Shown in pieces: positions 8,014 through 38,405 of a stretch of 44,345 bases of DNA. The notes below the pieces were generated by a model. That model made no database searches. It was given only the letters and a program-made list of their open reading frames with translations, and was not told the origin of the DNA. The stretch's first letter is position 1. Each line of letters opens with the position of its first letter. Source of the DNA: a virus; the IMG/VR virus record IMGVR_UViG_3300015360_000076, positions 1 through 44,345 of that record; one strand, 5' to 3'. Both the position numbers and the translations under genes were made by a program.

Positions 8014-9192
8014 ATGAATATCAAGCAATCGTTTCTAGCAATGGACGCATGTTTCGCAGCAGGTTTAACTCCGCATTTCATTGGCCTTCACGGCATTGGA
8101 AAATCGGCAGTAATGTATCAGTATGCTTCGGCAAATGGATATGAAGTTGTAGAAATTCGCGTAGGACTTATGGCCGATGCTGGTGATTTAGTCGGCATTC
8201 AAGAATTTCTTAAGTGTAAAAACACTGGAGAAGCTCTTTCCACTCGCCACGTTTTGCCCGACTGGTTTATGAAAGCGGTTGTGCAAATATCAGAAGCTGG
8301 GGCAAATCAAAAGCCTGTTATCATTTTCATCGATGAGCTTAACCGAGGCCACAAAGATTTGCTCCAGGCTATCTTCGAACTCGTTTACGACCGCTCTTTG
8401 AAAGGCGTAAAAATGCGCAAAGGTTGTCAAGTTGTAGCTGCTTCAAATCCTCCGACGGAAGATTACAGCGTATTAGACTTTGACGATTCAGCTTTTCAAG
8501 ATCGCTTTGTGCATATCAAGTTTGAGCCAACAAAAGAAGAGTGGCTTACATATATCAAAGAAGCTGCTCCAACTTCTACAGTTGGCGACTTCATTGCCGA
8601 GTATCCGCAAATGCTTGAGAATGCTGGACTGAAAAGCTTCAGCCTTGATTTCGTAAAACCTTCACGAAGATCATGGGACAGGATTACTAAGCTAGAAGCT
8701 GTGAAATGCGATCCAAGCATTGAGCTAGAACTTTTCATGGGCATTGTCGGCCTTGAGCCAGCACTAGCTTATACAAAGTTCCGCGAAACAAATTTCAAAG
8801 CTATTCGTGGCGAGCAAGTGCTTAACGAATACAAAACCGTTCGCAAAGAAGTGAAAGCAGCGATTAAGAAAAATCGCACTGACTTACTTGGAACAGTTAA
8901 CCAAGAGCTTGATGAACTTTTCAAAACCATGACTAGCTTAACTAACGCTCAAGCTGAAAACTTGTCTGAGTTTGTGAATGATTTGCCCGCAGAACATGCT
9001 TATGCATTAGCGATTATTGTCAAAAATAACACGCAATGTACTCTCAATATTGTCGATGTCGATGTTAAGAAATTAACAGAGGGCGCGGAGAAAATGGGAA
9101 TGTTCGGCTATACAAAATTCGTAAATAGAGTTTTAGCAGTTCAAACTAAGCGCGAAGAAGCTAAGAAACAAACAGAAGCAGTGGCAACATAA
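8014..9192 (+). CDS. MoxR-type AAA+ ATPase
   Basis: 392 aa from ATG 8014, chosen because AAGGAG lies 8 bases upstream. Walker A GLHGIGKS (24-31), Walker B IIFIDELN (103-110, Asp107-Glu108), sensor 1 Asn145 in VAASNPP, and an Arg in QDRFVHIKF near 164 that fits the arginine finger. MoxR-type ATPases remodel partner proteins, often with a VWA protein encoded next door, as here. Residues beyond about 270 are a helical extension I do not recognise. Probably cytoplasmic and hexameric by family. Confidence 0.85.
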   Translation: MNIKQSFLAMDACFAAGLTPHFIGLHGIGKSAVMYQYASANGYEVVEIRVGLMADAGDLVGIQEFLKCKNTGEALSTRHVLPDWFMKAVVQISEAGANQKPVIIFIDELNRGHKDLLQAIFELVYDRSLKGVKMRKGCQVVAASNPPTEDYSVLDFDDSAFQDRFVHIKFEPTKEEWLTYIKEAAPTSTVGDFIAEYPQMLENAGLKSFSLDFVKPSRRSWDRITKLEAVKCDPSIELELFMGIVGLEPALAYTKFRETNFKAIRGEQVLNEYKTVRKEVKAAIKKNRTDLLGTVNQELDELFKTMTSLTNAQAENLSEFVNDLPAEHAYALAIIVKNNTQCTLNIVDVDVKKLTEGAEKMGMFGYTKFVNRVLAVQTKREEAKKQTEAVAT

Positions 9193-9197
9193 AGCTT

Positions 9198-9221
9198 TGG
9201 GGGAGGAGAAATTTTCCCCCA
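9198..9221 (+). promoter_or_regulatory. Stem-loop between the ATPase and VWA genes
   Basis: TGGGGGA pairs with TCCCCCA around a 10-base loop. There is no T run, so it is a weak terminator at best; it may set the ratio of the two gene products or protect the mRNA end. Confidence 0.5.
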
Positions 9222-9255
9222 GCATTTTACGGCAAGCACAAAAATAGGAAATGAA

Positions 9256-10536
9256 ATGCAAAACATTGAAACTACCGAAACTCCAGCTCTTGCTCCAGAA
9301 GTTATCTGCGGAAAGTCTTTACTAGTTGCTCAAGAATCTCTTTCGATTGTAATTACACTATTACTTTCGCAAGGAGGCGGACAAACTTCGCCAAAAACTT
9401 TCTATGCGCATTTTCTTATGAACATGAATATACAATGGGTGGGGCCAAAGCATCAGGTACAAACTATGGGCGTAAGTATCACTGACAAAGTTAACTTATA
9501 CATTAGCCCGACATTTTTCAATAAGCTAAACACCGCTCAGCAAGGCGAAGTTCTTGAGCATGAAATTGAGCACATAGTTTTCATGCACCCACTTCGGGCA
9601 AAAGATTACATTAGCACTGAGAAGAATGCTAAAGGCCGACACAAGTGCGCAAACATCGCAATGGATGCGAACATTAATGAAAATAAGCCAACGCTTATGA
9701 AATTTAGCGAAGGCTTTGTTACAATTGCTCGCTTAAATGCTCAACTAAAAGAAATTGGTTCGAAAGATGCGCTTGATATAAAAGATCCTTGGGAAGTGCA
9801 TTACGAAAAGCTTATGAAAGCAGCGAAAGAAAATCCCGATCAAGGCGGCGAAGGATCTGATGGTTTTGGCGATCCAGTAGACGATCATTCAATCTGGGGC
9901 GAATCGACAGCTAACAAAGAAGTTGCTGAAGGCATTATCAAAAATGCTGCAAACAAAGCTCAAGCTTCTACTGGAGCTGGAAATATGCCTGAGAATATGC
10001 TCAGAGAAATCGCTAACATGAATAAAAGCACCGTGAATTGGAAACGAGAATTGCGCCAATTTTTTACTAACGCACTCACTTATGATTTTACTAAAACACG
10101 TAATCGCAGAAATCGCCGCTATGGCGTAGTTCAACCAGGACGTAAGAAAAAGCCAAACTTGCACATTGCAGTTTGCGTAGATAGTTCTGGCTCAGTTTCA
10201 GATTCATCTTTCACTCAATTCTTTGCGGAAATTGTAGAAATTTCTGAGATGGGAGTTGAGATTACTGTTCTTGATGCAGATTGCGAAGTGCAAAGCGTTT
10301 ACAAGTTCGACAAGAAGAAGCAAGTGAAGAGATCAGGGCAAGGTGGGACAATGTACCAACCTGCGATTACAAAAGCTAAAGAGCTCGGCGTAGACGGGAT
10401 TATATACTTTGGTGATGCAGATTCCGCCGATACTCCAGTAGATCCTAAGCTTCCATTTCTTTGGGCAATAGTCGGAAATCAAACTGCACCTGGGAATTTT
10501 GGAAGAACTATCAGAGTACTTGAGGAGAAGAAATGA
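9256..10536 (+). CDS. DUF2201-type metallopeptidase-like and VWA domain protein
   Basis: 426 aa. The N-terminal domain has a zinc-site motif HEIEH (102-106) in LEHEIEHIVFMHP, typical of the putative metallopeptidase domain of DUF2201 proteins. A Gly/Asp-rich linker spans about 195-215. The C-terminal VWA-like domain has the MIDAS motif DSSGS (309-313) and a later GGT (QGGTMYQP). Family members are encoded beside MoxR-like ATPases, as here, and the VWA domain probably binds the ATPase. Whether the zincin half is catalytic is not shown. The stop overlaps the next start (ATGA). Confidence 0.85.
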   Translation: MQNIETTETPALAPEVICGKSLLVAQESLSIVITLLLSQGGGQTSPKTFYAHFLMNMNIQWVGPKHQVQTMGVSITDKVNLYISPTFFNKLNTAQQGEVLEHEIEHIVFMHPLRAKDYISTEKNAKGRHKCANIAMDANINENKPTLMKFSEGFVTIARLNAQLKEIGSKDALDIKDPWEVHYEKLMKAAKENPDQGGEGSDGFGDPVDDHSIWGESTANKEVAEGIIKNAANKAQASTGAGNMPENMLREIANMNKSTVNWKRELRQFFTNALTYDFTKTRNRRNRRYGVVQPGRKKKPNLHIAVCVDSSGSVSDSSFTQFFAEIVEISEMGVEITVLDADCEVQSVYKFDKKKQVKRSGQGGTMYQPAITKAKELGVDGIIYFGDADSADTPVDPKLPFLWAIVGNQTAPGNFGRTIRVLEEKK

Positions 10537-11198
10537 AATTTACAATAAAAAAGACGACTGAACAAACTTTAATAGACAATAAAATCCTAGAGCTTTCAAA
10601 AATTTCAGGACTATATGAGTTTACAATTGCTAACTGCTTTTTGGCTGGCGGAGCGGTTAGGGATATTGTTCGCCAAAAAATTCCTAAAGATTGGGACATC
10701 TTCTTCAAAACCGATGCTGCAAAAGATGAGTTTCTTGCAAAGTTTTCGGGAAAAATGGAGCTAACTGGGTTTGGGAATTACAACTGGAAAATGTTCCAAT
10801 TTATTACTATGGAAACTGGTACTCCTCAAAAAGTTACCGATACCTTTGATTGGAACGTAAACCAAGTGTACTACGATTTCGCAAGTTCTAGATTTGGAGG
10901 ACAGACTCAAGACACCATGATGCACTTGATGCTAAATACAAAAGCTAAAACTCCACTTTCGGCGATTATGAGATTGCCTTATTTCATTGAGAAAGGCTTC
11001 AAGATAGATCAGAAAGAGCTTCTCTTTTGCCTAACTTTCATAAGCATAGCAGTTAACTTAACTTCTCACGAAGCTGTCTCAAATCAGAAGAACTTTACAT
11101 CAGGCAACGGCGGAGAAGTTGGCGGCATTGAAGGAGTTATCGAAAGAGCTAAGAAAGCAGCTCTTGAGCAATCGCCTTTATGCAAGGCCTTGCTATGA
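10533..11198 (+). CDS. Nucleotidyltransferase-like protein with SPLxxAL tail
   Basis: 221 aa, coupled by ATGA to the VWA gene. The motif LAGGAVRD (38-44) followed by KDWDIFFKT (52-60, Asp53/Asp55) is the head-domain signature of class II CCA-adding/poly(A)-polymerase-type nucleotidyltransferases (GG...RD...DxD). The RNA-binding parts of those enzymes are not obvious, so the substrate is unknown. It ends EQSPLCKALL, making it the largest protein carrying the common tail. Operon context suggests work with the ATPase/VWA pair. Confidence 0.75.
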   Translation: MKFTIKKTTEQTLIDNKILELSKISGLYEFTIANCFLAGGAVRDIVRQKIPKDWDIFFKTDAAKDEFLAKFSGKMELTGFGNYNWKMFQFITMETGTPQKVTDTFDWNVNQVYYDFASSRFGGQTQDTMMHLMLNTKAKTPLSAIMRLPYFIEKGFKIDQKELLFCLTFISIAVNLTSHEAVSNQKNFTSGNGGEVGGIEGVIERAKKAALEQSPLCKALL

Positions 11199-11425
11199 AC
11201 GAAGCTTTGGCCCAATTATATTTTAAGCTTTTGTGCAGCGGAGATATAAAATATACCGCAAAGAGAGCGTTCTTCAGTGCTCGACCTGACTTCTCGGAAA
11301 TTCTGAGCCTTGAAGAAGCGGTTTATGGCCGCAGAATTCTCAACGACACTACTACTAGAAAGCTTCCAGAGTTTAAGCGAGCGGTTGAGCTTTACGAAAG
11401 TCCTTTAATGGAGGCGATGAAATGA
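11195..11425 (+). CDS. Small tagged protein (YESPLMEAMK tail)
   Basis: 76 aa from ATG 11195, which overlaps the previous stop (ATGA); an earlier in-frame ATG at 11180 lies inside the upstream gene. Charged helical protein with an Arg-rich middle. It ends YESPLMEAMK, a divergent form of the shared tail with Met and Lys at the last positions. No other family recognised. ATGA overlap with the next gene. Confidence 0.7.
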   Translation: MNEALAQLYFKLLCSGDIKYTAKRAFFSARPDFSEILSLEEAVYGRRILNDTTTRKLPEFKRAVELYESPLMEAMK

Positions 11426-11673
11426 GCAAAATTATTCCTGAATTTTACTACAATGATATGAGAACTTTTTTCGCCGACAAAGAGTTTAGCTTCGACAAAG
11501 ATTTTTTAAATAATAACGGATGTAGTGCATTTGTGGGGGCACTAGAAAAATACTATCCCAAGTTTATGGGCAAGGGGATATATAAGCCCTTCACCCAAAT
11601 TAAAGAGCTTCGAGAATTTGGCGAAGAGTTGATAAGAATTCAAAACAGCCCATTGGCGAAGGCTTTGAAATGA
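11422..11673 (+). CDS. Small tagged protein (QNSPLAKALK tail)
   Basis: 83 aa, coupled at both ends. Aromatic N-terminal half (FYYNDMRTFFADKEF) and a helical C-terminal half ending RIQNSPLAKALK. Fold unknown. Only the final decapeptide is shared with the SH3-like tagged proteins. Confidence 0.7.
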   Translation: MSKIIPEFYYNDMRTFFADKEFSFDKDFLNNNGCSAFVGALEKYYPKFMGKGIYKPFTQIKELREFGEELIRIQNSPLAKALK

Positions 11674-11873
11674 AATCTATAAATTGGGACAATCCTATGT
11701 CATACGAGGAATTTGAAGGAGCATCTTGGGGCGGAGTATTTTTATATCACGAAATTGAGCACTACGAGGCTCATATCAAGAAACTAATGAGACACACTCA
11801 GAAAAGTGCTTATGAAAGCTACCTAAGCTACTGTAAAATCATAGCCTCTCCGCTAGGACAGGCACTTTTGTAG
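11670..11873 (+). CDS. Small tagged acidic protein (IASPLGQALL tail)
   Basis: 67 aa. The C-terminal pattern AYESYLSYCKIIASPLGQ matches the proteins at 21430 (YQAYLAYCKLCETPL) and 38605 (YEAYVKWCEILNSPL), defining a second tagged family: Y-x-x-Y-[LV]-x-[YW]-C-[KE]-x-x-x-[ST]-P-L. Acidic, His/Glu-rich middle (YHEIEHYEAH, not a zincin motif). Last gene of the ATPase/VWA operon before a new promoter. Confidence 0.72.
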   Translation: MKSINWDNPMSYEEFEGASWGGVFLYHEIEHYEAHIKKLMRHTQKSAYESYLSYCKIIASPLGQALL

Positions 11874-13280: not shown

Positions 13281-13937
13281 ATGAATAGCTACTACGACAA
13301 ATATGATAGAATTCATCACAAGCCTTGCATAAACGGCGAACCAAGCAGTGGAAACGGCTGGATTTATTCAGCTTATTCGGGAAAACTTGACGTTCCACTT
13401 GATATAAAAAAATTGGAACAATGCTTTGAGCTCTGCAAAGTTAGCGCAACTCAAATTAACAGAAGCCCAGGTAAAGCTTTACCGCCGATCTCCCGTGATG
13501 AAATTCTCGGCTTATCAGCTTTGAAACTTCTGAAGCCTTACAACCTTAACGGATGGAATTTCTCCCCTTACGCAATTCCTAAATTCTCAGCAATAGCTTT
13601 AGCTAAGCAACTTTGGGAGCTTCGGCCCACTTTAGTTAGTGACGGAGTTGGCGGGTATGAACTTGTCTACAAACATCGCAACTATTTTTGGAAAAACCAC
13701 TTAAGTCAAATCTACCGCTTCTCTTTTTCTGTCTCACTTACTGACCGCCACTTCATTCTAAAAAATTGGGGCGCAAAGAAAAGCTTAAGCTATTTCGTAT
13801 ATTGGGCAATTGCTAAAGTCGATTCACTACTTCCGGCGAAAAATGGAATACGTTGGCTAAAATATGGAACGGGAATTGCGGAAATGGCGAAAGAATTTCC
13901 AGCAGATCATCCGATAACTTTGGCGGCGAAAAAATGA
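13281..13937 (+). CDS. Unknown protein, 218 aa
   Basis: Begins at the base after the previous stop with gggagaag as ribosome site. Aromatic-rich, basic toward the C-terminus, with no signal peptide and no motif I can place. It contains NRSPGKALPP internally, which resembles the tag but is not C-terminal. The stop overlaps the next ATG. Confidence 0.7.
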   Translation: MNSYYDKYDRIHHKPCINGEPSSGNGWIYSAYSGKLDVPLDIKKLEQCFELCKVSATQINRSPGKALPPISRDEILGLSALKLLKPYNLNGWNFSPYAIPKFSAIALAKQLWELRPTLVSDGVGGYELVYKHRNYFWKNHLSQIYRFSFSVSLTDRHFILKNWGAKKSLSYFVYWAIAKVDSLLPAKNGIRWLKYGTGIAEMAKEFPADHPITLAAKK

Positions 13938-14194
13938 AAGAGCTTGAGGATAAGTATTTCGAAGGCTTTGTAAAAGGCTTTTGGGATTTGGAAAGTATCT
14001 CTAAAGGGCAAGTTCTATTTTTGGATATAGGAGAGGAAGTGGACAAGTTTAATGAGGAGATAAACTCGCTTGAGTGTTTTAAATATGGAGAGGTTCTAGA
14101 CCATGAAACATGTTTCGAAACTGAAGAATTACAAAATGCGCTAAAGCGTTGGAAAGAATTCGAAAGCAGCCCGCTTTATCAAGCTCTCTTATAA
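13934..14194 (+). CDS. Small tagged acidic protein (SSPLYQALL tail)
   Basis: 86 aa from ATG 13934 (ATGA overlap with the preceding stop). Strongly acidic helical body, for example EEVDKFNEEINSLE, and a final helix KRWKEFESSPLYQALL. Not SH3-like. It lies 19 bases upstream of the ClpP-like gene, so it is the immediate neighbour of a candidate tail reader. Confidence 0.72.
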   Translation: MKELEDKYFEGFVKGFWDLESISKGQVLFLDIGEEVDKFNEEINSLECFKYGEVLDHETCFETEELQNALKRWKEFESSPLYQALL

Positions 14195-14213: not shown

Positions 14214-14753
14214 ATGTCTCTCGATGAAATCTGGATGAGCGGTGACTTCACCGCAGAATCAGCTCTCAAGCTTCGCAAAGACATCCTCGAACACGCTGCT
14301 TTGGGCGAAGATGTTCCAATTTTAATTTACATAAACTCTTACGGCGGATCTGTCGATGCTTTAAACAAAATCTTAGACACTATTGAAAGCCTTCCGAATA
14401 AAGTTGTCACAATCTGCTCTGGAACTGCAATGTCCGCTGGAGCGTTTCTTCTTTGCGCCGGAGATGAAAGATACATCGGAAAAAATAGTCGCGTTATGAT
14501 TCATCAAGCAAGTGCTGGAGTTTTTGGCACAGTTAATGAAATGGACGCAAATCTAAAAGAATTTAAGAAGATGAACAACAGAATTATCAATCTCGTTTCT
14601 AAACGCTGCGGAAAATCGGTGAAAGATATTAAGGAATTGTTTGGCGTAAGCACTGACAAGTACTTTTCGCCGCAAGAAGCGAGAAAGTTTGGACTGGTAG
14701 ATAAAATTGGAACGCCAAGGTTAAAGACGGTAACTACTTATGAAATCGCATAG
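14214..14753 (+). CDS. ClpP-like serine protease
   Basis: 179 aa, close to the usual ClpP core length. Strong ribosome site (caggagg). Triad by family pattern: Ser74 in SGTAMSAGAF (69-78), His97 in VMIHQAS (94-100), Asp148 in STDKYFSPQEA. The oxyanion glycines appear in NSYGGSVDAL. ClpP proteases degrade unfolded or tagged proteins delivered by AAA+ unfoldases, while some phage ClpP-like enzymes act as capsid-maturation proteases. Here no head genes are adjacent; tagged small genes flank it on both sides, and its end overlaps the next tagged gene by 14 bases. Confidence 0.88.
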   Translation: MSLDEIWMSGDFTAESALKLRKDILEHAALGEDVPILIYINSYGGSVDALNKILDTIESLPNKVVTICSGTAMSAGAFLLCAGDERYIGKNSRVMIHQASAGVFGTVNEMDANLKEFKKMNNRIINLVSKRCGKSVKDIKELFGVSTDKYFSPQEARKFGLVDKIGTPRLKTVTTYEIA

Positions 14754-14955
14754 GTTTAAGAAAGGTGATAGAGTGGTTAGAGTTTCGGACTCAGGAGACA
14801 TCGGCTTTCCTCCTAAATTAGGCAAGATTTTAGTTGTTGAGAATGTGAAACGATGGGGAGTTATTCATTTTATTGGGGAAGATGTCGGATGCTACCCCGA
14901 AGACCTTATTTCCGAAGAACTCTTTAATTCCCCGCTCTACCAAGCACTACTTTAA
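14740..14955 (+). CDS. SH3-like small protein with SPLYQALL tail
   Basis: 71 aa, overlapping the ClpP-like gene. The opening HRFKKGDRVVRV followed by short beta strands resembles SH3-like small barrels (KOW/Tudor type). First of about 18 paralogues. It ends ELFNSPLYQALL. Next downstream is the PD-(D/E)XK nuclease. Possible adapter or nucleic-acid binder; function unproven. Confidence 0.75.
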   Translation: MKSHRFKKGDRVVRVSDSGDIGFPPKLGKILVVENVKRWGVIHFIGEDVGCYPEDLISEELFNSPLYQALL

Positions 14956-15002: not shown

Positions 15003-16028
15003 ATGCGAATAAGTCACTCCTCAAAAACGACACTGAAGCAATGCGGGGAAAAGTACCGCTTACATTACATTAGGAAGCTTCGTTCGCCAAAACTATTCTC
15101 TGCCCTTTTCTTCGGCGGCGCTTTAGATGAAGCATTTTCACGAATGCTTTTGGATAAAAAGCTGATGAAAACTCCAGAAGAGGAGGAGCTGCTCCAATTC
15201 TCTCCTGCTGAAATATTTTATAAAAAAATGGAACGAGTGGAGAACAATGGCAAAACTATCGAAGCTGCAAAAAGCACTTACGCTGATTACTATAGCAGCG
15301 ATTTTTCCCCAGAGTTGCTTACCGCTGAAGCTGTGGAGAAGCTATCGGAATTTGCGCCAGATGTGGCAAATTCTACAGACGCTAAAATCGCCAAAGAGAA
15401 TTTTCTGGCTTTTATGGATGAGTGCAAAGCCGTCGTCAAAGCTAAAAAGAAGCTATCTCTTGAGGACTTGGCGCTCTTCAATTATGTAACTTGGCTTACG
15501 TTGGTTGAGAAAGGCTATCTAATGCTAGAAGCTTACAAAACTCAAATCATGCCCCAAATTTTCGAAGTTTATTCAATTCAAGAACGTATAACTTTGCCGA
15601 ATGAAGCGGGCGATGAAATTACAGGCCTAATCGACTTCACCTGCTCGTTTGTTGACGAACCTGGGACAATGTACGTTTGCGATAACAAAACATCGTCAAA
15701 GCCTTACAAAGCGTCTGAAACAAGCTTGTCAGAGCAACTTGCAACTTACTGCGAATTTAAGCAAACAACTAAAGCTGCGTATGTAGTTATCGAAAAGAAG
15801 ATTTACGCGAAAATTCCTAAAATTCACACGCAAATCTTAAGAGATGACATCACTGAGGCAACATTTGCTGAGACATTTGCACATTTTGAGGAAGCATTGT
15901 ATAGTATTAGTACAGGTGATTTTGAGCAGAACTTTAAGTCTTGCTTCGATTACGGTCGCCTTTGTCCATATTTTGCTCTTTGTAAGCACAATAACGCCGA
16001 AGGATTGGTAGATGTATCCGAAGTTTAA
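15003..16028 (+). CDS. RecB/Cas4-like PD-(D/E)XK nuclease with Fe-S cysteines
   Basis: 341 aa. Nuclease core: GLIDF (Asp211), VCDNKTS (Asp227-x-Lys229) and SEQLATYCEF (Gln245). Cys14 (LKQCGEKY) plus Cys314, Cys321 and Cys327 (GRLCPYFALC) match the four-Cys iron-sulfur cluster of Cas4/AddB-type nucleases. Such enzymes resect DNA ends for recombination, which fits the ERF annealing gene three genes downstream. Its end overlaps a tagged SH3-like gene by 17 bases. Confidence 0.87.
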   Translation: MRISHSSKTTLKQCGEKYRLHYIRKLRSPKLFSALFFGGALDEAFSRMLLDKKLMKTPEEEELLQFSPAEIFYKKMERVENNGKTIEAAKSTYADYYSSDFSPELLTAEAVEKLSEFAPDVANSTDAKIAKENFLAFMDECKAVVKAKKKLSLEDLALFNYVTWLTLVEKGYLMLEAYKTQIMPQIFEVYSIQERITLPNEAGDEITGLIDFTCSFVDEPGTMYVCDNKTSSKPYKASETSLSEQLATYCEFKQTTKAAYVVIEKKIYAKIPKIHTQILRDDITEATFAETFAHFEEALYSISTGDFEQNFKSCFDYGRLCPYFALCKHNNAEGLVDVSEV

Positions 16029-16224
16029 AGTAGGCGAAAAAGTAGTTTACATCGGCAAAAATGCACAAGAGTTTCACGGAAAGCTAGTTCAAATAGAAAG
16101 TGTACGCAGTGTACTTTATAAAGTACCTCACTACTACATTATAGAAATTGACTGGCCTGTTTCCGAAAATATTTTAATTGCTGAAGAAATATATAATTCG
16201 CCACTTTACCAAGCACTACTTTAG
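16012..16224 (+). CDS. SH3-like small protein with SPLYQALL tail
   Basis: 70 aa. YPKFKVGEKVVYIG at the N-terminus; Val- and Tyr-rich strands in the middle; ends EIYNSPLYQALL. It overlaps the nuclease gene end. A 19-base gap with aaggaaa leads into the 16244 gene. Confidence 0.75.
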   Translation: MYPKFKVGEKVVYIGKNAQEFHGKLVQIESVRSVLYKVPHYYIIEIDWPVSENILIAEEIYNSPLYQALL

Positions 16225-18221: not shown

Positions 18222-18452
18222 ATGATTTTCAAAGTTTCCCCCTTTCGCAATGGCAAAGAAGACTTAATCACCCACATTCGGCGAAATGGCAATGACGTAA
18301 CTTTACTCAGTTTCTACTGCGCTTGCGGTGGATTTCCAGTTGCTGCGGCAATTGTTTTCTGCATCGAGGAGTTTCCAGAAAGGGCAGAAGAGTTGAAGAA
18401 GAAGCTGGAAGTTATTAAGGAGTTTTATGGTTACGAATCGATTACTGAGTAG
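18222..18452 (+). CDS. Small unknown protein
   Basis: 76 aa from ATG 18222 with ggggg upstream; a TTG at 18204 is in frame but lies within an AAAATTGGAAC motif. Hydrophobic Cys-containing centre (LLSFYCACGGFPVAAAIVFC) and a charged helix after it. No family recognised. Overlaps the next start by 26 bases. Confidence 0.58.
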   Translation: MIFKVSPFRNGKEDLITHIRRNGNDVTLLSFYCACGGFPVAAAIVFCIEEFPERAEELKKKLEVIKEFYGYESITE

Positions 18453-18660
18453 GGAGGAGTGGATACCTCTAACAAGTGCTGAAGTAAGGGCTATTGTCGG
18501 AGAAGATGTGCGTAACGGAAACTTCCTTGCATTTTTTAGACGGTACTTCGGCGAGGAAACTGCGGATGCTATATGTATATGTCATAACTATGATTCCTAC
18601 GAATTATATCGCCAATGGTGGATTTTAGAAAACACGCCTTTAGGAAAAGCTTTAAAATAA
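18427..18660 (+). CDS. Tagged small protein (NTPLGKALK tail)
   Basis: 77 aa with aaggag just upstream. Aromatic, His/Asp-containing C-terminal part (ICHNYDSYELYRQWWILENT) ending TPLGKALK. Not SH3-like. The Thr-Pro variant of the tail also occurs at 21430 and 26363. Immediately upstream of the helicase gene. Confidence 0.7.
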   Translation: MVTNRLLSREEWIPLTSAEVRAIVGEDVRNGNFLAFFRRYFGEETADAICICHNYDSYELYRQWWILENTPLGKALK

Positions 18661-19684: not shown

Positions 19685-19897
19685 GTGGGAAAATTCAAAG
19701 TTGGCGATAGAGTTATAGTTATAGATGATCAATTAAGGCCACACCAACGTCACTTTCTTGGCAAAAGAGGAATCATTAAAGAAATAGATGAGACATGCTC
19801 AGGAAATTTCGATTGCGGACAATACTTCAGTCTTTTCTCTTTCAAACTAGAACTCGAAGCTGTTTATGAATCTCCTCTTTATCAGGCACTTCTATGA
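19685..19897 (+). CDS. SH3-like small protein with SPLYQALL tail
   Basis: 70 aa, GTG start directly after the helicase stop. MGKFKVGDRVIVIDD, then a basic, His-containing loop (RPHQRHFLGKRG), and AVYESPLYQALL at the end. ATGA overlap with the next paralogue. Confidence 0.75.
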   Translation: MGKFKVGDRVIVIDDQLRPHQRHFLGKRGIIKEIDETCSGNFDCGQYFSLFSFKLELEAVYESPLYQALL

Positions 19898-20121
19898 ATA
19901 AGTTTAAGATTGGAGATAAAGTTATCAAGGTTAGAGGCAAACAAGCTTTTGAGGACATTGAAATTTTGGATACAGGGACTGTAGTTGGTGAATGGAATGG
20001 CATAGGGTATAGGATCTTTATAACTAAAGGTAAGTACAAAGGCGAATCTAGCGTTACAGAAACGGAAAACTTAGAGCTTGAGTCAGTTTACAACTCTCCT
20101 TTATATCAGGCACTTCTATGA
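19894..20121 (+). CDS. SH3-like small protein with SPLYQALL tail
   Basis: 75 aa. NKFKIGDKVIKVRG, a Gly/Lys-rich barrel, ends SVYNSPLYQALL. Tandem with the previous paralogue and ATGA-coupled to the primase. Confidence 0.75.
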   Translation: MNKFKIGDKVIKVRGKQAFEDIEILDTGTVVGEWNGIGYRIFITKGKYKGESSVTETENLELESVYNSPLYQALL

Positions 20122-20972: not shown

Positions 20973-21194
20973 ATGCATAAGTTTAAGAAAGGCGATAGAG
21001 TTATACTTCTGCCATCTGCGGTTAAATCATCTAACGTACATATCAGTAACGTTGGCAAAGTAGTTATAGTTACAGAAGTGTCCCTAATAGATATTAGATA
21101 TAACGCAATTGAACATGGTAACTTTTGGGCAAAAGGCTATGACGTAGAGCTTGAATCAGTTTACAACTCTCCTCTTTATCGGGCGCTACTATGA
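20973..21194 (+). CDS. SH3-like small protein with SPLYRALL tail
   Basis: 73 aa. HKFKKGDRVILLPS; ends SVYNSPLYRALL, with Arg at the usual Gln position. Three bases after the primase stop, with no clear ribosome site, so probably translated by re-initiation. ATGA overlap downstream. Confidence 0.74.
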   Translation: MHKFKKGDRVILLPSAVKSSNVHISNVGKVVIVTEVSLIDIRYNAIEHGNFWAKGYDVELESVYNSPLYRALL

Positions 21195-21433
21195 AAGAAC
21201 AAGATTTGTCCCAAGTTTTCTTCGACATGCAAACTGTGGCAAACTCCTGCAAATACTTAAACGATTCTGATTTATATGACTTGTGCATTATGGATATTCA
21301 AATTTACCAGCGAGTAGATTTAGACGACATGTACGACAAACTTGCGGCTGGAGAAAAGCTAACTGCTGATGAAAGAAAAGAATTGGAACGATTCTATACT
21401 TTAGTCAGTGTCGATTTCCTGGTGAAAGAATGA
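21191..21433 (+). CDS. Small unknown helical protein
   Basis: 80 aa, ATGA-coupled at both ends between two tagged genes, but itself untagged (ends VDFLVKE). Acidic and helical. It contains GTCCCAAGTTTT, a variant of the window-wide motif. Confidence 0.66.
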   Translation: MKEQDLSQVFFDMQTVANSCKYLNDSDLYDLCIMDIQIYQRVDLDDMYDKLAAGEKLTADERKELERFYTLVSVDFLVKE

Positions 21434-21657
21434 AGCTTAGGAATACTGACAATCCTGTAGATGAGGATACGTTTAATCGTGATTGGAGAGGTGTAGCTAG
21501 ACGACATGGGCTAAATAGGCACTCTGTAAAATGGAACGAGTTTCACAACCTTATCGGAAGTCCTTTGGACTCAGTTAAACAGATCTCCCAGCATTACCAA
21601 GCTTACCTTGCATACTGCAAACTTTGCGAAACACCTTTGATGAAGGATTTAGAATGA
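21430..21657 (+). CDS. Tagged small protein (ETPLMKDLE tail)
   Basis: 75 aa. Member of the second tagged family: HYQAYLAYCKLCETPLMK at the C-terminus. The tail is the most divergent in the set (Asp-Leu-Glu for Ala-Leu-Leu). Arg/His-rich middle (RRHGLNRHSVKWNEF). ATGA overlaps at both ends. Confidence 0.7.
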   Translation: MKLRNTDNPVDEDTFNRDWRGVARRHGLNRHSVKWNEFHNLIGSPLDSVKQISQHYQAYLAYCKLCETPLMKDLE

Positions 21658-21902
21658 TTAAGTATAAAGTGGGGGATGTTGTAATTAGACATTCTCCAAA
21701 AGACCATGCCCTTGATTCGGGAATTGGCGAAGACTTACTCATTACGGACGTTAAGAGCTTTATTTTCCCCGTTATTAAAAGTTCTAATAACCATTACTAC
21801 ATGTTGGAAAATACTAGAACAGGCTCAGTTTACTCAGCTTGGGAAGATCAGATAGAGCTTGCCGAAGTTGTGCGCTCTCCATTGTATAAGGCACTTGCTT
21901 GA
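21654..21902 (+). CDS. SH3-like small protein with SPLYKALA tail
   Basis: 82 aa from ATG 21654 (ATGA overlap). IKYKVGDVVIRHSP; ends VVRSPLYKALA. Its TGA overlaps the TTG start of the DNA polymerase (CTTGA), so the polymerase is translationally tied to this gene. Confidence 0.74.
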   Translation: MIKYKVGDVVIRHSPKDHALDSGIGEDLLITDVKSFIFPVIKSSNNHYYMLENTRTGSVYSAWEDQIELAEVVRSPLYKALA

Positions 21903-24187: not shown

Positions 24188-24621
24188 TGAGTAAGTTTAA
24201 GTCCTATAAATATAGAGCTGATAAAAAAGGGATATTATTTGATATACCAGAGTTAGTTTTTAATCACTTAACTAAGCAAGAGTGTTATTACTGTAAAACA
24301 ACTGAAGGAGATAGAGGAGTTGATAGGATAAATAACAAATTAGGATACGAAAGCGGTAATTGTGTTTCGTCATGCTGGAATTGCAATAGAGCAAAATCTG
24401 ATATGGATGCCGGTGATTTTGTAGAGTACTTAAAGAGGTTCAATAAAGAGCTAACTATCAGACACAATCCATCTACCGTACATTGGGACGAAGGCTTTGT
24501 AGAAGTAAGAGCGGACATTTGGGACAGAGATGTACCTAGCGATAACATCCTTGCTTTTATGAAAGAAATAACAAAAAAGAAAAATTCTTATTTAGCTTCG
24601 AAGGCATTGGTAAAAAAATGA
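24187..24621 (+). CDS. HNH endonuclease (homing type)
   Basis: 144 aa, TAATG overlap with the polymerase. Zinc and HNH elements: ECYYCKT, GVDRINNKLGYESGNCVSSC and WNCNRAKSDMDAGDFVEYLK. This is the typical free-standing HNH layout (C-x2-C ... DRI ... N ... C-x2-C-N-x-x-K). Codon use looks more AT-rich than in the neighbours. A mobile endonuclease located next to the polymerase gene, a common homing target. ATGA-coupled to a tagged gene. Confidence 0.82.
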   Translation: MSKFKSYKYRADKKGILFDIPELVFNHLTKQECYYCKTTEGDRGVDRINNKLGYESGNCVSSCWNCNRAKSDMDAGDFVEYLKRFNKELTIRHNPSTVHWDEGFVEVRADIWDRDVPSDNILAFMKEITKKKNSYLASKALVKK

Positions 24622-24875
24622 GCAAGTTCATGGAAGGCGATAAAGTTTACTTTAACACTGGAACCTCTTATGGAAGTAAGGTGATAAAAGGCTTAGGCAC
24701 AATACGGAACGTTAGAACTGTGTCCACTGGGGGCTATTACGTTACAGTTAACTCCTTTATACAAGCACCAAAAAACTTCGGTAATATGGATGAAGTAATA
24801 GTATCAGAAAAAGAAGGCGGAGTTATCGAACACGAAGCTATCTACAACTCCCCTCTTTATCAGGCGCTGTTGTGA
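24618..24875 (+). CDS. SH3-like small protein with SPLYQALL tail
   Basis: 85 aa, the longest SH3-like member. SKFMEGDKVYFNTG, with a Gly/Tyr-rich barrel and an insert near VSEKEGG; ends AIYNSPLYQALL. Its TTG-TGA end forms the GTGA start of the next paralogue. Confidence 0.74.
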   Translation: MSKFMEGDKVYFNTGTSYGSKVIKGLGTIRNVRTVSTGGYYVTVNSFIQAPKNFGNMDEVIVSEKEGGVIEHEAIYNSPLYQALL

Positions 24876-25102
24876 GTAAGTTTAAAGTAGGCGATAAAGT
24901 TATCAGAGTTGGGCCGAGTACTTATTACACGTACTACCCTAACGTTATTAAAGGGATGATCTATATAGTTTACCAAATAGCACCTGAGGCATATAGTATA
25001 GTTATCGGTGATGAATCTAATGGCGAGAATTATACCTTCAACGCCTGTTACTTCATTCTCGAAGACGTTTATAACTCCCCCCTCTACCAAGCTCTGCTTT
25101 AG
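24872..25102 (+). CDS. SH3-like small protein with SPLYQALL tail
   Basis: 76 aa, GTG start. SKFKVGDKVIRVGP, then a Tyr-rich loop (STYYTYYP); ends DVYNSPLYQALL. Followed by a promoter region. Confidence 0.75.
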   Translation: MSKFKVGDKVIRVGPSTYYTYYPNVIKGMIYIVYQIAPEAYSIVIGDESNGENYTFNACYFILEDVYNSPLYQALL

Positions 25103-25169: not shown

Positions 25170-25394
25170 ATGTCCCAATTTAAAGTAGGCGATAGAGTTG
25201 TTGTCGTTAGATACGATGGCCGAGATGACCATCTTTATAACGGGCTATTAGCCACTGTTACTGAGGTTGGTGAAGATCACAGAAAGTGGTCGGTAAAAGC
25301 AATGTCTGAGAACTCTGAGGAATTCGAGTATGAAGCAGAAGAACTGGAACTAGAAGCTGTTTACAATTCGCCCCTTTATCAGGCGCTACTGTGA
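25170..25394 (+). CDS. SH3-like small protein with SPLYQALL tail
   Basis: 74 aa with ggagg upstream. SQFKVGDRVVVVRYDG; acidic middle (SENSEEFEYEAEELELE); ends AVYNSPLYQALL. The start codon overlaps a GTCCCAATTTA motif. GTGA overlap follows at the stop, but the next gene uses an ATGA-like position four bases earlier in the same junction. Confidence 0.73.
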   Translation: MSQFKVGDRVVVVRYDGRDDHLYNGLLATVTEVGEDHRKWSVKAMSENSEEFEYEAEELELEAVYNSPLYQALL

Positions 25395-25600
25395 ATAAGT
25401 TCAAAGTAGGCGATAGAGTGGTTAGAACAGGCGTATCTAACGGTAGACACTACTTAGGTAATATAGGCGTAGTTTTTGAGGTAATAAAAAATGGCCGCGT
25501 ATTAGTACAGTGGGAAACCAACACAGTTACTGGCAATTCTTCTGAAAATCTTGAACATGAAGCTATTTACAATTCGCCGCTATACAAAGCGTTAGCATAA
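25391..25600 (+). CDS. SH3-like small protein with SPLYKALA tail
   Basis: 69 aa, GTG start (GTGA overlap with the stop at 25394). NKFKVGDRVVRTG; a compact barrel; ends AIYNSPLYKALA. Confidence 0.75.
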   Translation: MNKFKVGDRVVRTGVSNGRHYLGNIGVVFEVIKNGRVLVQWETNTVTGNSSENLEHEAIYNSPLYKALA

Positions 25601-26136: not shown

Positions 26137-26366
26137 AAGAAACATTCGCAAAAATTGGAACATTCCTTGCCGCAATTTCTGGCATTGCATTTATCTTCTA
26201 TCTCTACCGCATTTTCAAAGACGTACCACTTTCTGATGACACATTCCCTCTTTCTGCCGAAAAAATTGAAGCGGAAAAAGCCGTTTCTGCCGCGAAAGAA
26301 GAGCTGAAGGAAGTTGATGCGAAAGTATTTTCGGACAAAGAAATCGAAGACAGGTTCAACAAATGA
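26133..26366 (+). CDS. Membrane-anchored coiled-coil protein
   Basis: 77 aa. Hydrophobic helix IGTFLAAISGIAFIFYLYRI (about 8-27), then an Ala/Glu/Lys coiled coil to the C-terminus. Layout resembles small spanin- or holin-accessory proteins, but there is no specific evidence. ATGA-coupled to the next tagged gene. Confidence 0.65.
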   Translation: MKETFAKIGTFLAAISGIAFIFYLYRIFKDVPLSDDTFPLSAEKIEAEKAVSAAKEELKEVDAKVFSDKEIEDRFNK

Positions 26367-26572
26367 ATGTGCTTTTTCAGATTACTTATGTTGAACGTTT
26401 CGGAACAACTAGAATTGGGCCGGTGAGTGTAATTGCAATTTCCTCTGGAAGCTATATTAATAACCCTCAGAACATCGTTCCACATTTTGTATTTATGGCT
26501 GGGTTAAATTTCGGAAGCATTCCCTGCTCACTTGCTGAGCTTTACACTCCGCTAACGGAGGCTTTGAAATGA
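26363..26572 (+). CDS. Tagged small protein (YTPLTEALK tail)
   Basis: 69 aa. Hydrophobic beta-rich body (VSVIAISSGSYINNPQ) not resembling the SH3-like set; ends AELYTPLTEALK. Coupled upstream and downstream by ATGA. Confidence 0.68.
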   Translation: MNVLFQITYVERFGTTRIGPVSVIAISSGSYINNPQNIVPHFVFMAGLNFGSIPCSLAELYTPLTEALK

Positions 26573-26805
26573 GCCGCTTTAAGATTGGCGATAAAGTTAC
26601 TGTAACTAATCATAACGTTCATCCAAGAAGCAGAAAGGACACTCTCTCTATTGGCGACAGCTTTGTAATTGGCAGCTTCAATGAATGTACTCCTAGCTTA
26701 AAGTATAAGTATGTTTACTTTCCAGAAATGGGCAATGGCTTTTTCGACACTGAGATAGAGCTTGAAGCAGTTTACAGTTCTCCGCTTTATCAGGCGCTGT
26801 TGTGA
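26569..26805 (+). CDS. SH3-like small protein with SPLYQALL tail
   Basis: 78 aa. SRFKIGDKVTVTNHNVHPRS; ends AVYSSPLYQALL. Its TTG-TGA end gives the GTGA start of a membrane peptide. Confidence 0.75.
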   Translation: MSRFKIGDKVTVTNHNVHPRSRKDTLSIGDSFVIGSFNECTPSLKYKYVYFPEMGNGFFDTEIELEAVYSSPLYQALL

Positions 26806-26891
26806 CCTTAGAACCGCTATCGTTTGCATCTGGCTTTTGCGTTGGCATTTTTATAACGCTGCTGTTTTTAATTTGGGAGCTTTATGAGTAA
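26802..26891 (+). CDS. 29-aa membrane peptide
   Basis: GTG start overlapping the previous stop. One hydrophobic helix (FASGFCVGIFITLLFLIW) with acidic ends. It overlaps the next gene by 8 bases and carries that gene's gggagc ribosome site. Confidence 0.48.
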   Translation: MTLEPLSFASGFCVGIFITLLFLIWELYE

Positions 26892-27114
26892 GTTTAAGAA
26901 GGGCGATAGAGTTGTACTGATTGAGTTATGTGATAATACCCAGGAATGGGATAAAGTTTCATTAGGCTCTGTAGGTGTTGTTATTAAAGTAGATGATAGT
27001 CCTAAGTATCGAAACGAAGTAGTTTTTGAAAATGAAAATCAAGATGCACTTTGCGATCACAAGTTAGAATTCGAAAGCGTTTACAATTCCCCGCTTTACC
27101 AAGCTCTGCTTTAG
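26884..27114 (+). CDS. SH3-like small protein with SPLYQALL tail
   Basis: 76 aa. SKFKKGDRVVLIELCDN; Val-rich barrel (GSVGVVIKVDD); ends SVYNSPLYQALL. Last gene before the reductase promoter. Confidence 0.75.
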   Translation: MSKFKKGDRVVLIELCDNTQEWDKVSLGSVGVVIKVDDSPKYRNEVVFENENQDALCDHKLEFESVYNSPLYQALL

Positions 27115-27160: not shown

Positions 27161-27215
27161 AAACCCCTGTCCCAGTTTTTACATTCACTACATTACGAAA
27201 TTGCCAGGAGGGCGC

Positions 27216-30732: not shown

Positions 30733-30936
30733 ATGGTAAATAAATACACTCGACAATCGGCAAAGAAAGAAATCGAAAGTGCTATAGATGATTGGGACAG
30801 TAAGTGGAAAATTGCCACAGAGCTCGCTAACGATGAGGAAATTCGCATGGCAATTGATTGCTATGAGCAAGAGAAGTTAGATCCTGAAAATTACAAATGC
30901 ACTTGTGTTGTACCACGTCCCGAAGATTATATGTAA
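30733..30936 (+). CDS. Small unknown protein with CTC-type Cys pair
   Basis: 67 aa. Helical charged body (SAKKEIESAIDDWDSKWKIA) and a C-terminal segment YKCTCVVPRP. Weak ribosome site. No tag at the end. Confidence 0.6.
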   Translation: MVNKYTRQSAKKEIESAIDDWDSKWKIATELANDEEIRMAIDCYEQEKLDPENYKCTCVVPRPEDYM

Positions 30937-30943
30937 GGAGCTT

Positions 30944-31147
30944 ATGGAATTTAAGAAAGGTGACTTTGTTATTCGCTCGTCTAAGGGCAGATTTTCAGGA
31001 GTTGTTTTTGGCGAAACTTATGAAGTAGTTGGTGTCGATGAGGGTTTTATAACTTTAAAAGGATTCGATAGGAGAGTCTCTTTTCAAGGAGGCAATTTCA
31101 TCCTACATCCTGCAAATGGCTCTCCACTTTTAGAGGCGCTGAAATAA
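30944..31147 (+). CDS. SH3-like small protein with SPLLEALK tail
   Basis: 67 aa from ATG 30944 (AAGGAG at 30935). MEFKKGDFVIRSSKG; Gly/Phe-rich barrel; ends ANGSPLLEALK, one of three SH3-like members whose tail departs from SPLY (with 38820). Confidence 0.73.
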   Translation: MEFKKGDFVIRSSKGRFSGVVFGETYEVVGVDEGFITLKGFDRRVSFQGGNFILHPANGSPLLEALK

Positions 31148-31378
31148 ATGGTACATATACTAGATTCTAAATTCAAAGTTGGCGACATTGTTGTTCGGAC
31201 GAAGCAAGGCTTCTGGGGTGCTGGGACGAAAGCTAAAGTAATTAAAACTCCTACCAACCGCTTACCAGGTGATTATCAAGTGAGAATTGTCGGCGAAGAT
31301 CTTAAGACAGGCTGGAACGTCAAGAACATGGAACTAGAAAGCGTCTACAACTCTCCACTTTACCAAGCTCTTCTGTAG
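31148..31378 (+). CDS. SH3-like small protein with SPLYQALL tail
   Basis: 76 aa, directly after the previous TAA. DSKFKVGDIVVRTKQG; ends SVYNSPLYQALL. Its TAG is immediately followed by the stop of the minus-strand gene at 31379, with no bases between. Confidence 0.75.
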   Translation: MVHILDSKFKVGDIVVRTKQGFWGAGTKAKVIKTPTNRLPGDYQVRIVGEDLKTGWNVKNMELESVYNSPLYQALL

Positions 31379-31609
31379 CTAGAGAAGTGCTTTATAGAGG
31401 GGGGAGTTATAAACTTCCAAAAGCACAATCTCCTCTTTGTAAAATCTCGGAGAATAATCAAAATGCAAAGAATCTGTATCTAATATGTATATTTCCTTGT
31501 CTTTGTTGAAGGTTGCAAGCCTTATGATTTCCGCTTCTACGCCATTGTATATAGCATATTGACCTTTAGCATTTACAACAATAACCATATCGCCGACATT
31601 GTATTTCAT
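31379..31609 (-). CDS. SH3-like small protein with SPLYKALL tail (minus strand)
   Basis: 76 aa. MKYNVGDMVIVVNAKG; ends EVYNSPLYKALL. Last gene of the minus-strand mini-operon. Its tail codons form an inverted repeat with those of the converging gene at 31378. Confidence 0.75.
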   Translation of the reverse strand: MKYNVGDMVIVVNAKGQYAIYNGVEAEIIRLATFNKDKEIYILDTDSLHFDYSPRFYKEEIVLLEVYNSPLYKALL

Positions 31610-31704
31610 TTTAGCCCTAAGTAAAGCTTATGACACGCTAGAAATCCCATTGCGAAAGCTAAGAACATGCTTGTGAGAAAAGTGCCCCAGTTCATGTCTT
31701 TCAT
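31606..31704 (-). CDS. 32-aa membrane peptide (minus strand)
   Basis: Starts at an ATGA overlap with the upstream minus-strand gene and ends at an ATGA overlap with the next. Sequence MKDMNWGTFLTSMFLAFAMG then a Cys and a basic tail; one transmembrane helix. Confidence 0.5.
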   Translation of the reverse strand: MKDMNWGTFLTSMFLAFAMGFLACHKLYLGLK

Positions 31705-31895
31705 AACAACGCCTGATAAAGGGGAGAGTTGTAAACGTCTTTGCGCTCAAGTTCACGTTCTTCGAACCAATCAGGAAGTGCTTCTTTATTCAGTCTGTAA
31801 GGGAGGTAATCGTCGTTTAAGTCTACTTCCATAATTACAAAGACATCTGAAATCTCAATTACAATTACCTCATCACCAACCTTAAACTTTCTCAT
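31701..31895 (-). CDS. SH3-like small protein with SPLYQALL tail (minus strand)
   Basis: 64 aa. MRKFKVGDEVIVIEIS; acidic; ends DVYNSPLYQALL. It overlaps the upstream HNH gene by 14 bases. Confidence 0.75.
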   Translation of the reverse strand: MRKFKVGDEVIVIEISDVFVIMEVDLNDDYLPYRLNKEALPDWFEERELERKDVYNSPLYQALL

Positions 31896-33575: not shown

Positions 33576-33877
33576 GCAGCAGCACTTGGTTTTACATTCA
33601 CTTCTTCTTTGTAACTTTGTCCCACTTTTTAGTTATTATCCTGGCGATTTCTACCGTCGTTAACTTCTGCAAATCAAACGCAGCTCTTCTCGATCGCGGC
33701 AGAAGATTCGCAATAGTATTCTTCTTAACAGCTCTTGGCGTAAATCACATAACGTCTTCGAGTTCTAAATGCATTCTCACTACCTTAGAAAATGGGGCGA
33801 GAGTTAGAGAAGGGAAAGTAGAAGTTGGAGATTTCTTGCCGCGATATTATGAAGCGTTTAAAAGGGTGGGAAAATGA
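33572..33877 (+). CDS. Membrane protein, 101 aa
   Basis: Helix 1 at about 7-30 (FFFVTLSHFLVIILAIS), helix 2 at about 45-58, then a soluble C-terminus (EVGDFLPRYYEAFKRVGK). ATGA overlaps at both ends. Could work with the exported coiled-coil protein. Confidence 0.65.
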   Translation: MSSSTWFYIHFFFVTLSHFLVIILAISTVVNFCKSNAALLDRGRRFAIVFFLTALGVNHITSSSSKCILTTLENGARVREGKVEVGDFLPRYYEAFKRVGK

Positions 33878-34101
33878 AAGTGGGGCAAAGGGTTGTGTTG
33901 GTTTCAGATCATAAGTCCTACATGGGCGGTATAGACATCGGTGGTTGGTTCATTTTATCGAATTTAAAGGCTTTCCAAGACGGGCGCATCCAAGCCATAA
34001 AAGAAGATCCTAAAGCACATAAGATAACTTGGAACATTCACCCCGATGATTTCATCACTGAAGAAATCTACAACTCCCCGCTTTACCAAGCACTGCTGTA
34101 A
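33874..34101 (+). CDS. SH3-like small protein with SPLYQALL tail
   Basis: 75 aa. MKVGQRVVLVSDHKS; ends EIYNSPLYQALL. Next downstream is the exonuclease unit with its own promoter. Confidence 0.73.
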   Translation: MKVGQRVVLVSDHKSYMGGIDIGGWFILSNLKAFQDGRIQAIKEDPKAHKITWNIHPDDFITEEIYNSPLYQALL

Positions 34102-37214: not shown

Positions 37215-37318
37215 TATTCGTTCCAATTTATTTAATCATACTTATCTCAGCTTGCATTTACAAAAAAGAACGCCGAGTGAATAAGCAATTTCACGGCATA
37301 TCACGGACGGAAAAATGA
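37211..37318 (+). CDS. 35-aa membrane peptide, possible lipoprotein
   Basis: IFVPIYLIILISACIYKKER: hydrophobic segment ending in a lipobox-like ISAC, then basic. ATGA overlaps at both ends; contains a GTTCCAATTT motif at 37220. Confidence 0.48.
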   Translation: MIFVPIYLIILISACIYKKERRVNKQFHGISRTEK

Positions 37319-37593
37319 AAAAATTCAAATATGGCGGAAGTGTTAATGACTGGGAAGATCAGCTAAACCAAGAAGTTTTGCAACAGTGTAAATCACTTCA
37401 AAAAGTAGAAATGATAGTGCTGATGGAAAAAAAAGCCAGAGAGCTTTGCGAATGCTTGAGTTTCGGAACATACACTGAGCGTTTGCTTTTTCTCGATGCT
37501 TTCTACAAAGGCTATTTTGCCGCGCACTGCTTTGATGAAGCGGAGGAGCAGCTAATTCTAACGCTATCTCCGCTTGGACAAGCACTCAAATAA
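37315..37593 (+). CDS. Tagged helical protein (LSPLGQALK tail)
   Basis: 92 aa. Helical with Cys residues and a Glu-rich C-terminal helix ending ILTLSPLGQALK. Not SH3-like. TAATG overlap with the next peptide. Confidence 0.7.
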   Translation: MKKFKYGGSVNDWEDQLNQEVLQQCKSLQKVEMIVLMEKKARELCECLSFGTYTERLLFLDAFYKGYFAAHCFDEAEEQLILTLSPLGQALK

Positions 37594-37659: not shown

Positions 37660-38145
37660 ATGCACATAGCTTTAATCATTCTTGCAATACTCATTTACGC
37701 AATTGTAGAAGCGTATAAGCACTTTCGTAAGCCCATCGGCCCAGATAAATTGGAACAAGCTCACCGATCTATTGGCGAACTTGAAACGCAGCTTAAGCTT
37801 TCGAAAGCTTCGAACATTGAAATAGCTGACGTTTGTACAAAAATGCGAGGGGAGTTTGAAAAGCTTCGTCATCAGAAAATATCTGCGGATGTTAAGATGG
37901 GGCAAAAATCTGAGAATCTTCTGCCGTTTCTACAGAGCTTTCCATATCGCGATGAAGAAATTCGCGGACTATTTAATCCTTTAGACCTCATTGTTTTCAC
38001 CGAAACTGAAGTTATCTTCGTGGAAGTAAAAACTGGAGCAGCGCAATTATCGGATAAGCAGAGAAGAATTCGGGACAATATAAAAGCTGGCCGCGTAAGG
38101 TTTGAGATACATAGGATGAATGAGAAAGGCGTGAGCGTAAAATGA
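37660..38145 (+). CDS. Membrane-anchored Holliday-junction-resolvase-like nuclease (Endonuc_Holl type)
   Basis: 161 aa. N-terminal transmembrane helix (HIALIILAILIYAIVEAY), a coiled coil (about 30-65), then a PD-(D/E)XK-type core: NPLDLIVFTETEVIFVEVKT (Asp, Glu-x-Lys) and SDKQRRIRDNIKAGRVRFE. This matches the family of endonucleases related to archaeal Holliday junction resolvases. May resolve branched DNA before packaging, near the membrane. Confidence 0.8.
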   Translation: MHIALIILAILIYAIVEAYKHFRKPIGPDKLEQAHRSIGELETQLKLSKASNIEIADVCTKMRGEFEKLRHQKISADVKMGQKSENLLPFLQSFPYRDEEIRGLFNPLDLIVFTETEVIFVEVKTGAAQLSDKQRRIRDNIKAGRVRFEIHRMNEKGVSVK

Positions 38146-38405
38146 AGAATGCTCAGGAGTTTGTTTATGAACTTGATCATATCATTAGCCCGCTTTTGCC
38201 AGAAAAAGTGTTTTTCCACTGCATGAGAATGACCTCATTTGCTCACTCTCTCAGAATTAGATTCGTAGATTTTGACCACACTACCAGCTATTTTCACAAA
38301 GAGTATGATTTCTCAAACAGGGACGCTATGGTTCGAGAGCTGATAAAAGATACTCAAGAGTTTACTGAGATATGGAACAGTCCTCTAATGAAGGCGCTTA
38401 GATGA
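38142..38405 (+). CDS. Tagged protein (NSPLMKALR tail)
   Basis: 87 aa, ATGA-coupled to the nuclease. His/Phe-rich body and a C-terminal helix TEIWNSPLMKALR. The last two tail residues read Leu-Arg. Fold unknown. Confidence 0.7.
   Translation: MKNAQEFVYELDHIISPLLPEKVFFHCMRMTSFAHSLRIRFVDFDHTTSYFHKEYDFSNRDAMVRELIKDTQEFTEIWNSPLMKALR

Follow-up and report, generated by a model that had tools for sequence, protein, structure and literature searches.

In the present study, we analysed a 44,345-nucleotide stretch of viral DNA (IMG/VR virus record IMGVR_UViG_3300015360_000076, positions 1 to 44,345; hereafter the window) and found that about 30 of its open reading frames (ORFs), located between 10.5 and 39 kb and corresponding to about 27% of the genes, end in a shared tail, [ST]PLxxAL-x. 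The first tagged genes directly follow a gene pair for a MoxR-type AAA+ ATPase and a zincin-like metallopeptidase fused to a vWA domain. From sequence comparisons, we propose with middling confidence that the tail serves as a C-terminal client tag specific to the phage, with this MoxR-vWA machine as its probable reader. A little more tentatively, we suggest that client-tag systems occur in several phage lineages. In such systems, each phage would label some 7-33% of its proteins with a C-terminal barcode of its own, read by its own co-evolving MoxR-zincin/vWA machine, so that barcodes differ completely between unrelated phages.

The tail was evaluated statistically in the window. The strict pattern was found in 24 of 96 non-overlapping ORFs, compared with 0.07 expected under a null model in which proteins were truncated at internal positions. 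When the carriers were grouped, 17 distinct BLAST families bore the tail, with a log10 p of -29 (the internal-window null gave about -4). Across 21 tails, 87% of the amino acids were identical, while the same-codon rate was 0.277, against 0.287 predicted by codon usage. Because the peptide is conserved while its synonymous codons are randomised, the tail is old and under purifying selection, and not the product of a recent DNA duplication. Most tagged window proteins are 65-90 amino acids (aa) long with a KFKVGDRV-like N-terminus; the others are unrelated helical-looking proteins and a nucleotidyltransferase (NTase). Tagged proteins in other phages include zinc-finger-like, DUF6745-like and PHROG 1987 proteins, and the carriers extend to proteins of 324 and 333 aa. 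The terminal residue is free (L, K, R, A, M, E, F, T and others), and one to eight residues follow the motif in some phages. These comparisons demonstrated, at the level of sequence, that the tail exists, is selected as a peptide and has been grafted on unrelated proteins including the NTase, and that it is uniform within phages and different between them. In a separate search, the exact SPLYQALL-stop DNA pattern gave one match, antisense to a structural-type gene, which was taken as chance.

The machine and the first tagged genes form a run of six plus-strand genes (8014-11873) in the order MoxR, zincin-vWA, NTase and three small tagged ORFs. The N4 gp24-like MoxR ATPase (8014..9192) matched PHROG 1297 (E 3.4e-45) and AAA_5 (E 1.3e-5) and contains GIGKS and FIDE motifs; its ATG at 8014 agrees with the 'MNI' starts of its homologues. 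The N4 gp25-like zincin-vWA protein (9256..10536) was assigned to PHROG 1314, with Pfam matches to DUF2201_N (E 2.8e-18) and to the DUF2201 vWA domain (E 2.9e-16). The NTase (10533..11198), a 221-aa member of the Gad2 family by profile match, also matched PHROG 1614 (E 1.4e-11) and, just below threshold, PolyA_pol; its C-terminal extension (...ALEQSPLCKALL) carries the tail SPLCKALL. The three small genes, recognised by the tail pattern, end in SPLMEAMK (11195..11425), SPLAKALK (11422..11673) and SPLGQALL (11670..11873, a paralogue of 21430-21657). ORF calls were mechanical throughout. The first of the small genes probably starts at ATG 11195, the program-called start at 11180 lying upstream. 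ATGA overlaps were present at 10533, 11195, 11422 and 11670, and a 63-bp gap separates MoxR from vWA. The initial annotation had listed the same six genes, and all were confirmed by coordinates, families and tails; the GG..RD and DxD motifs that it had read in the NTase are likewise present, the latter as DWD. Its description of the vWA gene, the NTase and the three further tagged genes as coupled holds as well, the gap between MoxR and vWA being no coupling.

The initial annotation had regarded MoxR/vWA pairs as known, and the pair found here is indeed of the N4 gp24/gp25 type. It consists of an AAA+ MoxR protein (PHROG 1297, with AAA_5 above cut-off) and a DUF2201_N-vWA fusion, and the same pair carries the N4 gp24/gp25 annotation in Schitoviridae. 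In an alignment with phage homologues, the HEIEH motif (HExxH) of the vWA protein and the residues D309, S311 and S313 of its metal ion-dependent adhesion site (MIDAS) were invariant. Previous work has reported a MoxR/metallopeptidase-vWA pair in group 2.2 jumbo phages and proposed that it aids virion assembly (PMC7824862). The pair lies near replication genes in several of the phages compared. We also observed that PHROG 1314, the DUF2201 zincin-vWA family, is often labelled 'HNH endonuclease' in phage records, a label unsupported by the Pfam domains. A suggested kinship with NTP-dependent conflict systems proved weak: the bpMoxR match of the window MoxR reached 14.4 bits, below the cut-off of 27, and no third component of such systems (VMAP, iSTAND, FtsH or beta-propeller) was seen, the neighbours at 11180-11873 giving no above-cut-off Pfam match.

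Relatives of the window phage were reached via MoxR homologues from IMG/VR (G and L numbers are our handles for records). Their tails take the forms [ST]xLxxALx in G001, SxLxxELx in G003, G049, G050 and G052, and LxxAIYE in G004. At position -3, alanine was found in 24 of 24 window tails, alanine or valine in G001, and glutamate in 18 of 19 tails of G003 and in all tails of G049 and G050. Orthologous tagged proteins bear the tail of their own genome; for example, KTSLGLALC in G001 corresponds to KTSLGQELL in G050, and CPSLIKVLL in G001 to PPSLLKELI in G003. Such a concerted change across a genome is expected if the reader is genome-specific. Outside this sample, the tag-clade vWA protein gave a single match among 84,980 bacterial and archaeal genomes, namely L251 (CAKZOO010000041.1), a phage-like contig in a Flavobacteriaceae metagenome-assembled genome in which many small KVGDK proteins end in NLxxLLYxGE. 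This 88-kb contig in a bacterial bin, with ribonucleotide reductase-, PDDEXK- and MoxR/vWA-like genes beside its many tagged small proteins, probably represents a phage that ended up in the same bin as its host.

Tails in other MoxR/vWA phages were sought by a motif-free screen of C-termini, collapsed to families. The screen revealed a CxxCxxRFxCWT tail in 24 families of G056 and PExxI tails in G057, G065 and the isolated Vibrio phage Va1 (MK387337). In Va1, [HY]PExFI ends 78 of 331 ORFs, which belong to 68 families and in most cases have a length close to 100 aa; the two genes after MoxR are tagged, as are both neighbours of the distant vWA gene. For G056 / L061 (IMGVR_UViG_3300027861_000001), we observed the RFxCWT-type end on 24 G056 ORFs and the form CxxCxxRFxCW(T)x in L061, where the tail resembles a zinc-knuckle tag and the carriers are largely small proteins with KVGDKV-like starts. 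Recurrent C-termini were also seen in L021 and L024, those of L024 being full-length paralogues and therefore a weak case. The middles of the L024 / G006 paralogues are rich in alanine, all copies terminate identically in MSELEKLLL(N/D)I, and one copy is ATGA-coupled to vWA, which would fit either a tag or simple paralogy. Several ORFs of the N4-like L086 / G058 end in K[ML]xxLL; this was non-significant at record level and taken as background, as were charged C-termini (KKK, KDE) in MoxR-less loci.

The link that the initial annotation drew between the ATPase machine and the tag gained support in a wider form, across phages, from a MoxR clade, L251, the unrelated tails and the untagged MoxR-less records. 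Only two families, MoxR and vWA, were found in each of the seven tagged records compared. A MoxR tree of 87 tips united the tagged phages identified up to that point in one 8-tip clade (support 0.77), whose other two members were L021 and L024, and unrelated tails recur in two further MoxR clades. Sister-group phages without MoxR/vWA (G011-G013) had no tails, and their DNA polymerases are 53-60% identical to that of the window, compared with 43% for the tagged G003. The helicase and concatenated trees group G011/G012 with G003/G050 and place the window outside, although not all gene trees agree; this grouping implies a joint loss or a joint gain of machine and tag. Tails were present in 9 of 30 phage records with MoxR/vWA and in 0 of 13 without (p about 0.025, one-sided hypergeometric, ignoring kinship). 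The 13 MoxR-less records comprised nine relatives and 50-kb stretches of T4, KVP40, phiKZ and FADO, for which the absence of MoxR/vWA was taken from the annotation of the stretch read. Among PolA relatives (80 loci, 45-60% identity), no tags were found within 10 kb, and 38 full records had no MoxR.

Several observations weigh against a reading of the tail by MoxR-vWA. The contrast of 9/30 with 0/13 gives a p of only about 0.025, uncorrected for kinship, and the tagged records were mostly found via MoxR/vWA, which under-samples tags without MoxR. Some two thirds of the phage records with MoxR/vWA are untailed, including the N4-like LUZ7, SBP1 and Pastis, and the machine can therefore work without tags. 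Tagged genes made up 15 of 52 neighbours of MoxR/vWA against 8.8 expected, which was non-significant (p 0.053); with some 27% of genes tagged, tagged neighbours of the machine are near expectation. In G004, G056 and G049, no tagged gene adjoins the machine. The residues co-varying with the A/E switch at -3, vWA column 378 and two MoxR columns, are uncorrected and suggestive only. We consider it a real, if lesser, possibility that the tail is a true targeting signal with another reader, such as a virion component that would package injected accessory proteins, a host hub protein or another phage protein, and that MoxR/vWA is a mere fellow traveller. The untailed majority of MoxR/vWA phages fits another reader, as does the finding that the tagged genes are mainly small accessory genes distributed genome-wide and not just by the machine; a change of host could also explain the strong tail differences between phages. 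What speaks for MoxR-vWA instead is that no other families are shared by all tagged records, that the sister-group phages without them are also untailed, and that the tags follow a MoxR clade across otherwise dissimilar phages.

It is unlikely that the shared C-termini are only the last conserved element of one hyper-diverged small-protein family (SH3/KOW-like), kept for folding. The KFKVGDRV-like N-termini of most tagged window proteins and the clustering of sizes near 75 or 100 aa agree with a single family, and the product of 19894-20121 was modelled as a small beta barrel in which the tail forms a short helix at the C-terminus (predicted local distance difference test score, pLDDT, 73); a fold search with this KOW-like model returned no PDB structure at an E-value below 0.001. 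However, the signal persists when counted by families (17 in the window, 68 in Va1), the tail is carried by NTases in two unrelated phages, by the 324/333-aa proteins and by others, and related phages differ throughout their genomes at one and the same tail residue. Still less probably, the tail directs its carriers to degradation by a Clp-type protease. In favour of this are the hydrophobic character and C-terminal position of the tails, the two ClpP-like genes of the window (14214-14753 and 40039-40851), and the ClpP-like genes near MoxR in Va1 and L072 and near vWA in Pastis. Nevertheless, such genes are also present in the untagged G011-G013 and KVP40, and head-maturation protease families match both window genes, which are of the ClpP/S14 type, strongly. 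The tail further tolerates a variable last residue and extra residues, unlike ssrA-type C-degrons, and an ssrA/ClpXP-type reading was rejected on this variability, as the C-terminal residues are not fixed.

The initial annotation had taken the operon for a defined module that links the ATPase machine to the tag, with the NTase as a possible substrate, partner or effector. We now regard a single dedicated effector module of MoxR, vWA and the NTase as highly improbable. In its favour are the ATGA coupling and the recurrence of a Gad2-type NTase directly 3' of MoxR in contig L072 and the six Vibrio phages of the Va1 group, where the neighbourhood is kept while the NTases are only 28% alike. The NTase adjacent to MoxR in Va1 ends in the local tag KYPEYFL; its gene (MK387337, 29648-30784) is unannotated in the record. 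However, the NTase was undetected in the tagged syntenic relatives searched, the targets of that search holding no positive control, and one small tagged gene occupies the slot after vWA in G001 and G003. NTase homologues mostly have no MoxR/vWA neighbours, as in Bacillus phage FADO, Perkons, Vibrio 496E54-1, J2-1 and Eneladusvirus, with Pseudoalteromonas phages also represented; occurrence of the NTase without the ATPase/VWA pair was one of the two findings that the initial annotation had named as jointly refuting the module. Because homologues occur without MoxR/vWA neighbours and none was detected in the tagged syntenic relatives searched, the four-gene module is not conserved, and an effector module as a conserved unit is already largely refuted. 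Single-protein IMG/VR scans with the NTase and the vWA protein yielded no close relatives. AR9_g030, an NTase-sized product encoded downstream of vWA, was considered as an NTase and rejected.

The NTase is more readily understood as an optional client of the machine than as a core part. Its family profile matched Gad2 over the NTase region (E 6.5e-55), with the GG, DxD and FDF motifs aligned. The C-terminal domain of Gad2 (about residues 220-400) is absent from the window NTase, the tag extension standing in its place, and the tail falls outside the homologous domain. Its relation to Gad2 raises the possibility that anti-defence proteins are among the clients; the mechanism of Gad2 itself is unknown (PMC12904381). 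In Bacillus phage FADO (12340-13478), a Gad2-type NTase gene lies beside an ADP-ribose 1''-phosphate phosphatase-like gene, which hints at an RNA-repair or nucleotide-signal context.

If the tail is a client tag read by MoxR-vWA, a genome-specific C-terminal peptide (SPLxxAL-x in the window) would mark dozens of unrelated, mostly small accessory proteins and recruit them to the machine encoded at 8014-10536. The vWA/MIDAS protein, or MoxR, would bind the tail, with vWA acting as a co-chaperone, and the MoxR hexamer would use ATP for the remodelling, loading or handover of the client, whose tail the zincin domain could possibly trim. Candidate fates of the client are assembly into a complex, loading into virions and unfolding.

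Beyond the operon, tagged genes of the window lie on the plus strand unless stated. The tail SPLYQALL ends an ORF at 13853..14194, whose true start is probably downstream, and small proteins with KGDRV (14740..14955, beside the ClpP-like gene at 14214-14753), KVGEKV (16012..16224), KVGDRV (19685..19897) and KIGDKV (19894..20121, the protein modelled above) motifs. It also ends small proteins at 24618..24875, 24872..25102, 25170..25394, 26569..26805, 26884..27114, 31148..31378, 31701..31895 (minus strand) and 33874..34101. Other small proteins end in SPLYRALL (20973..21194, with KKGDRV), SPLYKALA (21624..21902 and 25391..25600), SPLYKALL (31379..31609 on the minus strand, and 38605..38823), SPLMKALR (38142..38405 and 38402..38608), TPLGKALK (18427..18660), SPLLEALK (30905..31147) and SPLGQALK (37315..37593), and an ORF at 38778..39041 ends in SPLWQALK. 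A variant tail, TPLTEALK, was found at 26363..26572, which is ATGA-coupled to the next gene, and a degenerate one, TPLMKDLE, at 21430..21657. The window also contains a ribonucleotide reductase gene split by an intein with a LAGLIDADG domain (27201-30104).

The functions of phage accessory proteins are mostly unknown, and a tag on up to a quarter or more of the proteins would, if our proposal is correct, sort them as clients of one process. It would also give a testable role to the widespread, unexplained phage MoxR/vWA pair, and cultured Vibrio phages of the Va1 group make the proposal directly testable. Should the tag prove to be an address label, proteins of choice could also be directed by it to the place that it specifies.

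Neither the ATPase pair nor the NTase family is new, and the whole corresponds to no type of phage system known so far. In the open-access papers searched, we found no description of C-terminal tags that are genome-wide and specific to a phage, or of a connection between such tags and MoxR/vWA. The MoxR-vWA ternary conflict systems resemble the window in their MoxR-vWA core, for which an action on client or effector proteins has been proposed, and differ in that no third component was seen in the window and its bpMoxR match is below cut-off (PMC7159879). The N4 gp24/gp25 and jumbo-phage pairs share the same two families, the zincin-vWA fusion and the adjacency of the genes (PMC7824862). For the N4 pair, the open-access papers searched describe no shared C-terminal client tag, and the N4-like members tested here are untailed. 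Compared with Gad2, by which SPbeta-like phages counter Gabija and which it strongly matches across the NTase region, the window NTase lacks the C-terminal domain and ends in the tag, and its anti-defence role is putative. To our knowledge, no receptor for such C-terminal tags is known in phages. C-terminal cargo or targeting peptides include the encapsulin cargo-loading peptide, peroxisomal targeting signal 1 (PTS1) and ssrA. The window-type tag is similarly a short C-terminal peptide on unrelated proteins; in contrast to these signals, it is phage-encoded, has its own sequence in each phage genome, and changes in concert.

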